Below, in pieces: positions 11,147-38,556 of a stretch of 64,000 nt of DNA (position 1 is its first letter; each line of letters opens with the position of its first letter). The DNA is taken from the NCBI GenBank assembly GCA_016223145.1, contig JACRPN010000011.1:124001-188000 (forward strand). The letters run 5' to 3'. Under the pieces are notes generated by a model. The model was not told the DNA's origin and ran no database searches. It worked only from the letters and a program-made list of their open reading frames with translations. Made by a program: the position numbers and the translations under genes. Origin of the DNA: Armatimonadota bacterium. Its GTDB lineage: Bacteria > Armatimonadota > Fimbriimonadia > Fimbriimonadales > Fimbriimonadaceae.

Positions 11147-14110
11147 ATGACGGCGCGTGAACTGAGAGAGAAGTACCTAGCGTTTTTTGAGTCGAAGGGC
11201 CACCAGGTCTACCCTTCGGCCTCCTTGGTGCCGTATGACGCCACCGGGCGGCTCGACGAGTCGCTGATGTTCACCGGCGCCGGCATGGTGCAGTTCAAGC
11301 CGTTCTTTCGTGGTGTGGCGCAGCCACCCAGCAAGTGCCTGACCGACGTGCAGAAGTGCCTCAGGACGACCGACATCGAAGAGGTCGGCGACCCGACGCA
11401 CCTGACCTTCTTCGAGATGCTCGGCAACTTCAGCTTTGGCGACTACTTCAAGAAGGACGCCATTGCCTATAGCTGGGAGTTCTTGACGTCGCCGCAGTGG
11501 CTAGGTTTGGATCCTAAGCGGCTTTCGTTCACCGTGTTTGAGGAGGACGACGAGGCCTATGGCTTCTGGGCGGAGCACCTGAGGGCGGCGGGCATCGACC
11601 CCGAGACGCGGATATTCCGGCTGGGAGAGGAAACCAACTACTGGCCCGCGGGCGCCTTTTCCAAGGGACCTCCTGGCCCCTGCGGCCCGAATTCGGAGAT
11701 GTTCTACTGGACTCCGAACGACGAGGACCCGCCCTCGACATCCTCATCAGGAATCACCTCTCCCCTCGCGGGAGAGGTCGGTGAGCGCAGCGAACCGGGT
11801 GAGGAGGGATCGACAATGACGGAACCGCCACCCACAACCCCCTCCTCCTCTCGCTCCGCTCCAAGAGGAGGGGGCTATTCCCGAGAGGATTATCTCCGCG
11901 ACGAGAAGGCCGGCAAGTGGCTGGAGATCTGGAACGACGTGTTCATCCAGTACGAATGGAAGGGCCGGCTGAAGAATCCGGAGCGGCCCTCGGACGGATG
12001 GGTGAAGGAGGGAATGGACCCGCTGCCGTTCCAATCGGTAGACACGGGCATGGGCCTTGAGCGCACGATCACTGTCCTGAACGGCACGAAGTCGGTGTAT
12101 GACAACGACCTCTTTGAGCCGGTGTTTAGGGCGATCAGGTCCGAGGTTCGAGGTCCGAGGTCTGGCGCCGGAACGGAGCGAGACGTCTCGGGACTTGCTT
12201 CTGCCGAGCGCATCATCGCCGACCACCTGCGGGCGGCGTGCTTCTGCATCGCCGACGGCATCCTGCCCTCGAATACGGGCCGCGGGTATGTGCTGCGGCG
12301 GCTGATCCGGCGGGCGGTGCTGAAGGGGCAGCGGGTGCTGGGGATCGAAGAGCCGTTCCTGCACAATGTGTATGAGGGTGTGGCGGAGGCGCTGGGCGGG
12401 CATTACACGGAGCTGGCCGAACGGCGCGAGATGATCGTCGAGACGCTGAGGAATGAGGAGGGGCTGTTTAGGAGAACACTGAAGGAAGGCTTTGGGGTCT
12501 TTCTCGAGACCCTGACTGACCATGTAATTCCAGAGATCGCAAAGCGCTTGCACGAAGAAACTGGGACGCGGCATGTGCTTTTCAACCCTCTTGAGCAAGC
12601 CGTTTTTCAAACGCAATCCCTCAAGCCGTGGACACTGCAGCTTCATTCAATGGTAGCGTTTCCGGGCCGCTTCGCCTTCCAGCTCTATGACACCTACGGT
12701 TTTCCCCTCGAAGTCACCCAAGAGCTCTGCCAAGAAGCCGGGATTGAGGTGGACCTCGAAGGCTTTGAGGCCGCCATGAAAGAGGCGCAGGAGCGCTCGA
12801 AGGCCGCGCACTCGGGCGACACGGTGTATGGCGGCGTGACGGTACGCATCGACCTGTACGCGCTTCACGATCACTTGGAAGTGTCGGACGGGTCAGACCC
12901 GTCAGACAAGTCCGACGTGACAGACAGAACAGGGAAAGCCATAGGCCCAACACCCACCCTCTTCACCGGCTACCAGGAGACCACCACCCAGGCCAGGATT
13001 GTGGGCGCTCTGCCTTTCGTCGATGAGGAACCGACGCCTGGTGCTCGGCTGGTCATCGCCCTCGACCGCACTCCGTTCTATGCCGAATCCGGGGGCCAGG
13101 TCTCCGACACCGGGACCATCGAGGGGAGCACTTTCAAGCTCAAAGTGGTGGACCTCATCAAACAGGACGGCGTGATCGTCCACCTCGTCGAGGTGCTTGA
13201 GGGCCAGGACTTCGACCTCTCCGGAAAGACCCCCGAGGAAGCCAAGGGCTACCTTCAGGGACTCCTATATGGTCAGCCCGTGATCGCCCGCGTGGACGCC
13301 CCACGACGACGCGACATCGCCCGGAACCACACCGCGACCCACCTGCTCCACGCGGCGCTTCGCAGCGTTCTCGGCAAGCATGTGACCCAGGCGGGGTCGC
13401 TGGTCAGTCCCGAGCACCTTCGGTTCGACTTCACCCACGGCAAGGCGATGACGGCGGAGGAGCTGGCCCTTGTCGAGCGGATGGTGAACGACCAGATCCT
13501 TCAGGCCGACGCGGTAAACATCCACATGGACGTGCCCATCGCGGAAGCCAAGGCGAAGGGCGCTATGGCGCTGTTCGGGGAAAAGTACGGCGACAAGGTG
13601 CGCGTCGTGGAGATCTCGGGGAGTCTCCCTCCCCCTGCCCCTCCCTCATTTTCGCAAAGCGAAAACAAGGGAGTGGCGGGCGCCATCGCGCGGCTACAAG
13701 AGCAGCTCCGAGAAGAGAAGAAGCGCGTGGAGCGCCTGCGCGCTCAAGGGACGGACAGCCAGCAGGCCGCGACGCTCGACGTGAAAGGCGTCGAATTGGC
13801 CATTCAAAAACTGGATGACGGCGACATGAAGGAAGCGACGGCGGTGGCTGACCGATTGGCCGACGCGCAACCCAACCGCGTTGTTGTAGTGGCGTTGGCG
13901 GCAGATGGCAAGGTGAGTCTGGCCGTCAAGGTCGGCGCAGAGGCCCAGGCCAAGGGCGCGCACGCGGGCAACCTGGTGCGCGAGTTGGCGAAGCGGGTGG
14001 GCGGCGGAGGGGGCGGACGTCCGGACTTCGCGACCGCCGGCGGGAAGGACGTGGCGGCCCTCGAGGGGGCACTGAGGGATGCGTCAGGGCTGTTGGCGGC
14101 TCAGCTCTAG
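11147..14110 (+). CDS. alaS: Alanyl-tRNA synthetase, interrupted by repeats and lacking the CxxxH editing motif
   Basis: The enzyme charges tRNA-Ala with alanine. The class II catalytic core is intact: MFTGAGMVQFKPFF, FFEMLGNFSFGDYF and motif 3 GMGLERT. The editing domain keeps its first zinc pair HTATH (728-732). The protein is 987 residues against about 870 for most bacterial AlaS. Extra segments are: residues about 197-245 (family A repeat plus a hairpin), 331-340 (four heptamers), about 447-502 (an unexplained insert before FQLYDTYGFP) and about 579-594 (octamers). After VRVVEISGS (about 825) the expected ELCGGTH zinc/editing motif and about 60 following residues are missing; a Pro/Ser-rich hairpin-encoded stretch leads straight into the coiled coil (RLQEQLREEKKRVERL). 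The C-Ala domain ends normally (GGGGGGRPDFATAGG). Aminoacylation should work; clearance of mischarged tRNA is probably impaired. Confidence 0.93.
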   Translation: MTARELREKYLAFFESKGHQVYPSASLVPYDATGRLDESLMFTGAGMVQFKPFFRGVAQPPSKCLTDVQKCLRTTDIEEVGDPTHLTFFEMLGNFSFGDYFKKDAIAYSWEFLTSPQWLGLDPKRLSFTVFEEDDEAYGFWAEHLRAAGIDPETRIFRLGEETNYWPAGAFSKGPPGPCGPNSEMFYWTPNDEDPPSTSSSGITSPLAGEVGERSEPGEEGSTMTEPPPTTPSSSRSAPRGGGYSREDYLRDEKAGKWLEIWNDVFIQYEWKGRLKNPERPSDGWVKEGMDPLPFQSVDTGMGLERTITVLNGTKSVYDNDLFEPVFRAIRSEVRGPRSGAGTERDVSGLASAERIIADHLRAACFCIADGILPSNTGRGYVLRRLIRRAVLKGQRVLGIEEPFLHNVYEGVAEALGGHYTELAERREMIVETLRNEEGLFRRTLKEGFGVFLETLTDHVIPEIAKRLHEETGTRHVLFNPLEQAVFQTQSLKPWTLQLHSMVAFPGRFAFQLYDTYGFPLEVTQELCQEAGIEVDLEGFEAAMKEAQERSKAAHSGDTVYGGVTVRIDLYALHDHLEVSDGSDPSDKSDVTDRTGKAIGPTPTLFTGYQETTTQARIVGALPFVDEEPTPGARLVIALDRTPFYAESGGQVSDTGTIEGSTFKLKVVDLIKQDGVIVHLVEVLEGQDFDLSGKTPEEAKGYLQGLLYGQPVIARVDAPRRRDIARNHTATHLLHAALRSVLGKHVTQAGSLVSPEHLRFDFTHGKAMTAEELALVERMVNDQILQADAVNIHMDVPIAEAKAKGAMALFGEKYGDKVRVVEISGSLPPPAPPSFSQSENKGVAGAIARLQEQLREEKKRVERLRAQGTDSQQAATLDVKGVELAIQKLDDGDMKEATAVADRLADAQPNRVVVVALAADGKVSLAVKVGAEAQAKGAHAGNLVRELAKRVGGGGGGRPDFATAGGKDVAALEGALRDASGLLAAQL
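11755..11809 (+). repeat. Palindromic repeat family A, copy 2, inside alaS
   Basis: This in-frame copy encodes SPLAGEVGERSEPGE within AlaS (about residues 204-219). The DNA shows the CTCTCCCCTCGCGGGAGAG stem and the GTGAGCGCAGCGAACCGGGT block of the family. It lies between the catalytic segment GPCGPNSEMFYW and the KWLEIWNDVF region, a spot where AlaS proteins tolerate a loop. Confidence 0.85.
11838..11874. repeat. Ten-bp stem hairpin inside alaS
   Basis: CCCCCTCCTC (11838-11847) pairs perfectly with GAGGAGGGGG (11865-11874) around a 17-nt loop. It sits just downstream of the family A repeat and together they make up the extra segment of about 50 residues. Confidence 0.75.
12137..12164. repeat. 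Four heptamers inside alaS
   Basis: Four 7-nt units, AGGTCCG, AGGTTCG, AGGTCCG and AGGTCTG, encode SEVRGPRSG in AlaS. This is a short in-frame tract of the heptamer family. Confidence 0.75.
12881..12928. repeat. Octamer-like tract inside alaS
   Basis: Degenerate 8-nt units related to GTGTCGGA/CGGGTCAG encode SDGSDPSDKSDVTD in AlaS. A closely similar tract, in reversed sense, lies in the GH172-like gene at 31595-31630. Confidence 0.65.
13629..13675. repeat. Hairpin repeat replacing the AlaS CxxxH segment
   Basis: The stretch has a CTCCCTC...CAAGGGAG outer pair and TTTTCGC-AAA-GCGAAAA inner arms, giving a long hairpin. It encodes a Pro/Ser-rich peptide (SLPPPAPPSFSQSENKG) at the position where AlaS proteins carry the ELCGGTH zinc motif. 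Confidence 0.75.
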
Positions 14111-36602: not shown

Positions 36603-36751
36603 GCCGCTCCAGGTCCATCTTACTTGAGGCGTTCGCCCGCTTCTGAGGGAACAGGGATTTGGGCTCAGAACGAAAGCACGCAAGGATGGGGTCACAAGCA
36701 CTGGGCCGCATCCCTGCGGCCACTGGCTCCGTAAAATCCTGCAACACTGGC

Positions 36752-37843
36752 ATGAATGCAAAGCACCGATGGAGGAAGCGATTGATCTGGATGCTCGCCA
36801 TTGTCTGCGTGTACCTTCTGGCCTGCTTTGGTCTCGCCTATCGTTACGTTCACCCCTCCAGAACGCTTTCGACAAAGCCTCCTAACGCCGAATCGCTCTC
36901 CATACCTGGCCCCGTTGCTGACATCCCGATCTACTGCACGTCCGGGCTTGCTGCAGGCCGGCCCAAGAGCCAGGTTGTTTACATCCTGGTTCATGGTTAC
37001 GGTGGGAATCGTGATAGTTGGGCGCAGACCCTTGAAGACCTTGAGGCCAAGGGGTTCGAGGTCGTCGCTCCGGAGATGCCCGGTCACGGCTCGAATCCGG
37101 ACGGGACCGTGGGGTTTGGGCTGAAAGAGGCGCGATGCGTGGTTGCGACGGCCCGGTGGGTGCGGTCGCGGTTCGCCTCCGAACTGTCCGAAGAAGGCCA
37201 GATAGCCGAGTCGAAGGGGCCGAGTGAAGGGATGAAGAGATTAAGGGATGAGGGGCAAGGGACCCCCTCACCGACTCACCCTATCACCGACTCACCGACT
37301 CACCCTCTCTCCCATTCCCCGACTCCCCGTTTCCCCGTTTCCCCGTCTCATCCCGGCGCCCCCTCATCTCCCAAAGAGCCCCGCATAGTCCTCGTAGGGG
37401 TCTCGATGGGCGGCGCGGCGTGCTGGATCGCCTCGGGTCTTGAGCCTGATTGGTTTCAGGCGGTCGTCACCGAGGGCGCCTTTGCCCGCCTCGACTGGGC
37501 CTCGGACCGCTGGTTCGCCATGCTGCTTCCTGCCGGGCATGTGATCCTGCGGCCCGTCCGGTGGTTCGCGGAAGCGATGTCCGGCGTTAGGACGTCGTCG
37601 ATCGCTCCCGTCACCGATGCGGCGAAATGGAGGGGCCGTCCAGCGCTAATAATCCAGTGCGAGTTCGACTCCTTGATCGAAGCGCGGCACGCCGAAGCCC
37701 TGGCGCAGGCCACCGCAGCGCCGGTGTGGACCGTTCCTGCGACGGGCCATGCGCAGGGCTATTCGGCCGCACCTCAGGACTACCTGAAGCGCTTGATTGC
37801 CCTCGGCGAGGGGGTTTCGCCCAATCTCGAATCCGGCCCATAG
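36752..37843 (+). CDS. Membrane-anchored alpha/beta hydrolase with repeat-derived insert
   Basis: The 363-residue protein begins with one hydrophobic anchor (RLIWMLAIVCVYLLACFGLAYRY). The alpha/beta-hydrolase core shows YILVHGYGGNRDSW (oxyanion region), VAPEMPGHGSN, the nucleophile in GVSMGGAACW, the acid in QCEFDSLIE and the histidine in PATGHAQGY. Between about residues 150 and 205 a Pro/Ser/Thr-rich stretch interrupts the cap, encoded by tandem octamers. The enzyme class (esterase, lipase or other) cannot be told. A TAAAAT box lies 14 nt upstream of the ATG. Confidence 0.85.
   Translation: MNAKHRWRKRLIWMLAIVCVYLLACFGLAYRYVHPSRTLSTKPPNAESLSIPGPVADIPIYCTSGLAAGRPKSQVVYILVHGYGGNRDSWAQTLEDLEAKGFEVVAPEMPGHGSNPDGTVGFGLKEARCVVATARWVRSRFASELSEEGQIAESKGPSEGMKRLRDEGQGTPSPTHPITDSPTHPLSHSPTPRFPVSPSHPGAPSSPKEPRIVLVGVSMGGAACWIASGLEPDWFQAVVTEGAFARLDWASDRWFAMLLPAGHVILRPVRWFAEAMSGVRTSSIAPVTDAAKWRGRPALIIQCEFDSLIEARHAEALAQATAAPVWTVPATGHAQGYSAAPQDYLKRLIALGEGVSPNLESGP
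37225..37366. repeat. In-frame octamer tract in the hydrolase gene
   Basis: From 37266 to 37353 the DNA is a run of 8-nt units (ACTCACCC, TATCACCG, ACTCACCG, ACTCACCC, TCTCTCCC, ATTCCCCG, ACTCCCCG, TTTCCCCG twice). It is preceded by G-rich GATGAAG/GGGATGAG units. It encodes a Pro/Ser/Thr-rich loop just before the nucleophile strand. Confidence 0.85.
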
Positions 37844-38324: not shown

Positions 38325-38556
38325 GACAGAGGGACTGAGGGACGGGGAGTGGGGAGGTGAAGGGATGAGGGAATTAGGGGGGTGTGGGAATTGAGGCGTT
38401 GGAGCATCGCGTATTGCCCATCGCGCATCGCGGTCTCGCCCCTCACCCGGTTCGCTGCGCTTACCGACCTCTCCCCCTCGGGGGCGAGGAGATATGCCCT
38501 TCGCGTATCGTCCATCGCGCATCGCGGTCTCGCCCTTCGCCTGTCGCGCTTCGCCA
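38325..38556. repeat. Composite repeat region with family A copy 3
   Basis: G-rich 7-8-mers (about 38325-38396) are followed by GCATCGCG/CCATCGCG-type units, an inverted copy of family A (38439-38491; CTCACCCGGTTCGCTGCGCTTACC then CTCTCCCCCTCGGGGGCGAG), and then more CATCGCGG and CCCTTCGCC units up to the next promoter. Confidence 0.8.

Follow-up and report, generated by a model that had tools for sequence, protein, structure and literature searches.

How does a bacterium come to carry an alanyl-tRNA synthetase (AlaRS) gene that specifies one half of the zinc-binding editing site and, in place of the other, a peptide encoded by a palindromic repeat, and is the gene real in this form? The question is posed by alaS in the window (the whole 64,000-nucleotide stretch of DNA that was analysed), which lies on a 353-kb contig of a 3.87-Mb assembly that is 97% complete. 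AlaRS editing is, to our knowledge, close to universal.

The alaS gene as assembled

The 987-codon alaS frame runs without a stop or frameshift. Its principal features are:

11147..14110, + strand: alaS (alanyl-tRNA synthetase), 987 aa, the sole alaS of the assembly
13289..13612, + strand: editing-core remnant, aa 715-822, with HTATH, HVTQAGS, FDFTH and MALFGEKYG, from the 29-member family alignment
13328..13342, + strand: HTATH, the first zinc-site half, aa 728-732
13793..14089, + strand: C-Ala/DHHA1 domain, intact, from Pfam

Pfam places the protein among the AlaRSs, with matches to PF01411 (tRNA-synt_2c, E 4e-144) and PF02272 (DHHA1, E 2.4e-14). Of the attributes of an editing-competent AlaRS (HxxxH, CxxxH and the tRNA_SAD domain), the window protein has HTATH only: no C-x-G-x-H is encoded in the alaS ORF, as the earlier note had read from the bare sequence, and there is no Pfam match to tRNA_SAD in the AlaS protein (11147-14110). 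Of the four zinc ligands AlaS, as assembled, has two, and roughly half of its editing core is gone. The further statement of that note, that the enzyme cannot edit in cis, follows from this if the sequence is real. At the junction the protein reads VRVVEISG-SLPPPAPPSFSQSENKGVA-GAIARLQEQ and then enters the coiled coil; GAIARLQEQLREEKKRVERLRAQ, directly after SLPPPAPPSFSQSENKGVA, corresponds in the alignment to the point where the coiled coil of the relatives begins.

A structure model of aa 498-987 has a mean pLDDT of 68.7 (low confidence), with about 93 in C-Ala and moderate values in the editing remnant. The stretch with the repeat peptide (model residues 329-351) falls below 50, which is consistent with a floppy linker. 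That this peptide replaces the lost motif, or forms a new editing or metal site, is scarcely credible: it has neither Cys nor His, it lies in that stretch of pLDDT below 50, and a similar peptide occurs in unrelated enzymes.

Upstream of the editing core, AlaS has other in-frame inserts:

11743..11804, + strand: second palindromic repeat, unrelated to the junction hairpin, in frame as SPLAGEVGERSEPGEEG; relatives are without the insert
12878..12938, + strand: repeat-type insert SDGSDPSDKSDVTDRTGK, in frame, not in relatives

The first of these is contained in an insert of ~44 aa (window 11733-11870) that relatives do not have; its palindrome family (SPLAGEVGERSEPGEEG) has more copies at window positions 38441 and 51080 and at several other loci of the genome. 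SDLSDKSD-type stretches like that at 12878-12938 are also present in the 6PGDH (L035), M14 peptidase (L041) and GH2 (L188) genes. Elsewhere in the window, an alpha/beta hydrolase-like ORF (36659-37843) has an in-frame low-complexity insert, SPTHPITDSPTHPLSHSPTPRFPVSPSHPG.

The missing segment in related genomes

Comparison with related AlaS proteins, which the earlier note had proposed, defines what is gone:

13618..13682, + strand: replacement junction; 69 sibling residues (ending KAQAAELP) are gone and 19 others stand in their place, in frame

The segment of 69 residues (F to P) is present in one genome of the same genus (G001) and nearly identical in another (G002). CxGxH is kept in both, and in every family AlaS that was translated whole. 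The earlier note had spoken of a lost CGGTH-like motif: the motif is indeed gone, its form in the sibling is CGGCH instead, and the loss, at about 69 residues, is larger than the motif. Against the solved AlaRS structure 3wqy, the window protein aligns to residue 698, whereas the sibling continues through the CGGTH strand to residue 788. The loop at the left junction varies naturally in length among relatives (for example, QIGGMSPSEPSFSRELCRG), so that simple insertion of a repeat there would have been tolerable.

The sibling segment is not found elsewhere in the 3.87-Mb assembly: a search with it returned the start of the same gene's coiled coil, a weak match on contig C3 and one match at chance level. 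The C3 locus is also that of the assembly's only tRNA_SAD match, a 628-aa open frame that, from its length and the range of the profile matched, is read as ThrS. A second complete alaS was also looked for; the PF01411 search of the assembly gives one match, to the alaS of the window.

Among relatives this state is rare. Each of 24 relatives has two tRNA_SAD matches, and in a comparison set of 87 further genomes from the order, all at least 90% complete, at least 83 have two or more (ThrS and AlaS), against one, ThrS-like, in the genome studied here. In full, two matches are found in 81 of the 87, three in 2 (G091 and G051) and one in 4. For three of these last (G021, G047 and G059) the single listed match lies in a frame of AlaS length, and it is ThrS that is missed or absent. 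The fourth, G078 (92% complete), has a ThrS-like sole match (C4:912569-912718); its AlaS may be missing or may be without the domain.

The hairpin at the junction and its family

The junction is occupied by a palindrome:

13623..13677, + strand: REP-like hairpin element, 55 bp, encoding (S)LPPPAPPSFSQSENKGV in frame

The earlier note's hairpin-encoded stretch is borne out: as DNA, 13623-13677 folds better than 200 of 200 dinucleotide shuffles (z = -4.21). A repeat-finding scan did not return this hairpin, which is shown by its fold and by the alignment of its family. Membership in a dispersed family goes beyond what had been noticed before. The 91-bp junction stretch matches 40-odd places in the genome, the family numbers ~45 copies, and an exact pattern taken from the 5' half of the hairpin occurs 38 times (the reversed pattern, as control, 0 times). 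Alignment of 42 distinct copies, 50-64 bp as matched, shows a conserved 5' GTCTCCC[A/T]CCCC and 3' AAGGGAGGGGC, with the consensus GTCTCCC[A/T]CCCC-AACCCCTCCCTCA[T/G]TTTCGC...GCAAAA[A/C]CAAGGGAGGGGC. Between copies there are several substitutions as well as differences in length. The copy in alaS has GTGGC for GGGGC at an otherwise conserved 3' position and a different loop, which suggests that insertion of the repeat may be older than the alaS deletion; the existence of subfamilies makes this soft.

Short palindromes, many dispersed copies and conserved ends are the marks of REP elements, and the family has all three. Its conserved end is GTCT, which sets it apart from the super-families tagged GTAG or CGTC. 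REPtrons have, in addition, a tyrosine transposase of their own with copies on its flanks; a link of the present family to a Y1 (RAYT-like) transposase was considered and dropped. The genome has 12 matches to such transposases, 11 of them above the family cut-off; no copy of the repeat lies in the flanking stretches examined for the best 8 of the 12. A 61-base query finds the family nearly absent from 12 relatives (G001 has one match, G040 has four, all weak, and G002 has none), so it is chiefly in this lineage that the repeat spread or was retained. It is a selfish-looking element.

The repeat in other genes

Counting as hosts those open frames with a Pfam match that flanks or adjoins a copy (ORFs with no Pfam match were left aside), at least 10 other genes contain the repeat in frame, 11 including AlaS; many of these insertions are in essential genes. 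Named from Pfam families and sequence, not from annotation, these are TrmD, GlnRS, IleRS, PheT, 6PGDH, an M14 carboxypeptidase, an Amidohydro_3 protein, GH2, GH20 and a beta-helix/PKD protein. In GlnRS and GH20 the repeat is inside the match to the catalytic domain (the GH20 copy is partial), and the Amidohydro_3 gene has two copies. The AlaS, TrmD, IleRS, PheT and amidohydrolase copies share the PPS[FV]S-type frame. The reverse-strand copies (6PGDH, M14, GlnRS, GH2, PKD and GH20) are mostly read as E[GNT]EGGxGxG or close to it, although in five examples that were translated none of the three forward frames is closed. The element is RPE-like in that it is found in frame in numerous genes unrelated to one another and favours one way of being read.

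For five hosts (IleRS, TrmD, amidohydrolase, M14 and PheT; GlnRS and 6PGDH have no usable sibling match) the flanks were compared, as one chimeric query, with G001, G002 and G014. Gaps in the query and the sibling are, respectively, 41 against 2 residues in IleRS, 59 against about 1 in TrmD and 63 against 8 in the amidohydrolase; M14 and PheT each give a single continuous match in which the query is longer than the sibling. From these alignments, the repeat in the five genes is an addition, at the cost of few residues or none. Among the six genes compared with siblings, AlaS alone shows loss of a domain.

Coding palindromes have precedents. RPEs are dispersed palindromes in frame in many unrelated Rickettsia protein genes, as described in those parts of PMC10969869 and PMC3733652 that cite Ogata et al. 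(2000, 2002). That is the likeness, one of description; RPEs measure ~150 bp, whereas the element here, in a Fimbriimonadaceae-type genome, measures ~50-64 bp. Intragenic REPs, known from several bacteria, are single-hairpin elements in tens of copies, some of them inside coding regions, with many hosts that serve the replication and repair of DNA (PMC3733652). The GTAG- and CGTC-tagged REPs resemble the present family as short single hairpins in tens of copies, some within coding regions; the family differs in its 5' end, GTCTCCC[A/T]CCCC, and in that several of its hosts are tRNA-related genes. REP and RPE insertions in proteins are thus already known, and loss of the AlaRS editing half at one of them would be new: in the literature searched, no bacterial AlaRS with its editing half lost this way was found, a result that is weak evidence that none exists.

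Age of the apparent loss

An editing domain that has long been without its function might be expected to show it in what remains. The remnant does not. In aa 715-822, none of the 36 columns that are invariant in 29 other family members is changed in the window AlaS (for the aminoacylation domain the figure is 3 of 132). Against four outgroups, unique changes in the remnant number 6-10 for the window and 5-9 for the sibling. By the NG86 method and relative to the sibling, dN is 0.178 for the remnant and 0.189 for the aminoacylation domain; dS is near 1. The remnant is without relaxed selection and evolves like the rest of the enzyme. Either, then, the loss happened very recently, or it is not real, or the fold by itself keeps the remnant as it is. 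A rough estimate of drift, which assumes 0.5 synonymous changes per site on the branch, ~2.3 nonsynonymous sites per codon and a remnant otherwise free to change, would allow at most about 7% of the branch as unconstrained time. A remnant under undiminished constraint speaks against an established loss; the readings left are a deletion of very recent date and a collapse in the assembly.

Would the loss be covered?

The earlier note had looked to AlaX or to a D-aminoacyl-tRNA deacylase (DTD) for compensation. AlaX finds no support: in the 97% complete assembly, no AlaX-type gene was found, the one tRNA_SAD match being the ThrS-like one. The DTD suggestion holds in part. A gene (L145 1192-1719, on contig C14) matches Tyr_Deacylase (PF02580, E 1.3e-46) in two separate stretches and has NFTVYGD...RRPSF and NDGPVT-type motifs; domain and motifs are those of a bacterial DTD, and the product is predicted to be a deacylase. 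Between the two Pfam stretches this gene has an in-frame GS-rich insert, GGSGGSSGKSGENGENGEGGPVQLSQLSQLSPSP. We know of no action of DTD on Ser-tRNA(Ala). Bacterial DTD does deacylate Gly-tRNA(Ala) (reviewed in PMC11295145). If the loss is true, Gly-tRNA(Ala) may be cleared by DTD, and Ser-tRNA(Ala) would be left uncovered.

Two known systems bear on whether a cell could live in this way. Loss of the CxxxH cysteine in E. coli AlaRS C666A ends editing, and the mutant is viable, with a growth defect and sensitivity to serine (PMC6918089); that is a point mutation made in the laboratory, whereas here 69 residues are lost in an assembly. Editing should fail, if the deletion is real, since C666A alone is already editing-defective, and charging should survive, since the catalytic and C-Ala domains are intact. 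Mycoplasma has lost synthetase editing naturally in ThrRS, PheRS and LeuRS, AlaRS not being among those listed (PMC7373986); its editing domains are degenerate, whereas in the present case a repeat has taken the place of the lost part.

An old and established loss of AlaRS editing, tolerated through DTD or another factor that deals with Gly- and Ser-tRNA(Ala), could appeal to the DTD gene with its usual motifs and to the viability of C666A. It is improbable: 36 of 36 invariant residues are kept in a remnant that is not accelerated, neutral drift over ~7% of a branch with dS near 1 should, by our own estimate, have altered some of them, and neither a known DTD activity nor an AlaX takes care of the serine product. 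The alaS loss is either a deletion of very recent date or an error of assembly, not an old and settled state.

Deletion or assembly artefact

A recent and real deletion of ~207 bp, with one end at the REP-like hairpin, is given slightly better than an even chance of having removed the CxxxH half of the AlaS editing site. The element would have inserted into the loop of alaS that comes directly before the CGGCH strand, and a deletion with one end at the element would then have taken the CxxxH half with the frame kept. The simplest route would start from two copies, this one and another formerly situated ahead of the coiled coil, between which recombination or slippage took place. Two copies within one gene are seen elsewhere, as in the amidohydrolase, which favours such a route; at the right junction of alaS neither a second REP copy nor a scar is visible, and this makes the route a guess. 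Alternatively, a single event may have both inserted the repeat and removed the segment. The resulting enzyme would still charge tRNA(Ala), without editing Ser-tRNA(Ala), and DTD may clear Gly-tRNA(Ala).

The competing explanation, to which we give a substantial chance though short of an even one, is that the true alaS has one or two REP copies and an intact CGGCH, and that an assembler jump has lost ~200 bp in frame. Recombination and an assembler jump between two copies would each leave one copy at the junction. The junction falls exactly at a member of a 40-odd-copy family; the unrelaxed remnant (0 of 36, dN like the rest) is equally expected from collapse; only AlaS of the six genes has lost a domain; and no AlaX was found that would cover the loss. 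Against an artefact, the copies have diverged, so that there is no sign of exact overlaps long enough to mislead an assembler; the deletion preserves the reading frame (by chance, one time in three); and the junction lies in a contig of 353 kb.

Implications

Protein-coding palindromes of RPE/REP type occur in a Fimbriimonadaceae-type bacterium and favour certain frames, and the repeat hits four tRNA synthetase genes and trmD. As a caution, where a draft assembly shows a domain 'lost' at such a repeat, the loss needs to be backed by reads. The boldest reading, that a spreading coding hairpin very recently ended AlaRS proofreading with charging intact and no AlaX, in a lineage that misreads Ala codons as Ser, is tentative and somewhat doubtful. 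If true, a natural loss of AlaRS editing would be a direct test of Ser-for-Ala mistranslation as tolerated by a wild bacterium.
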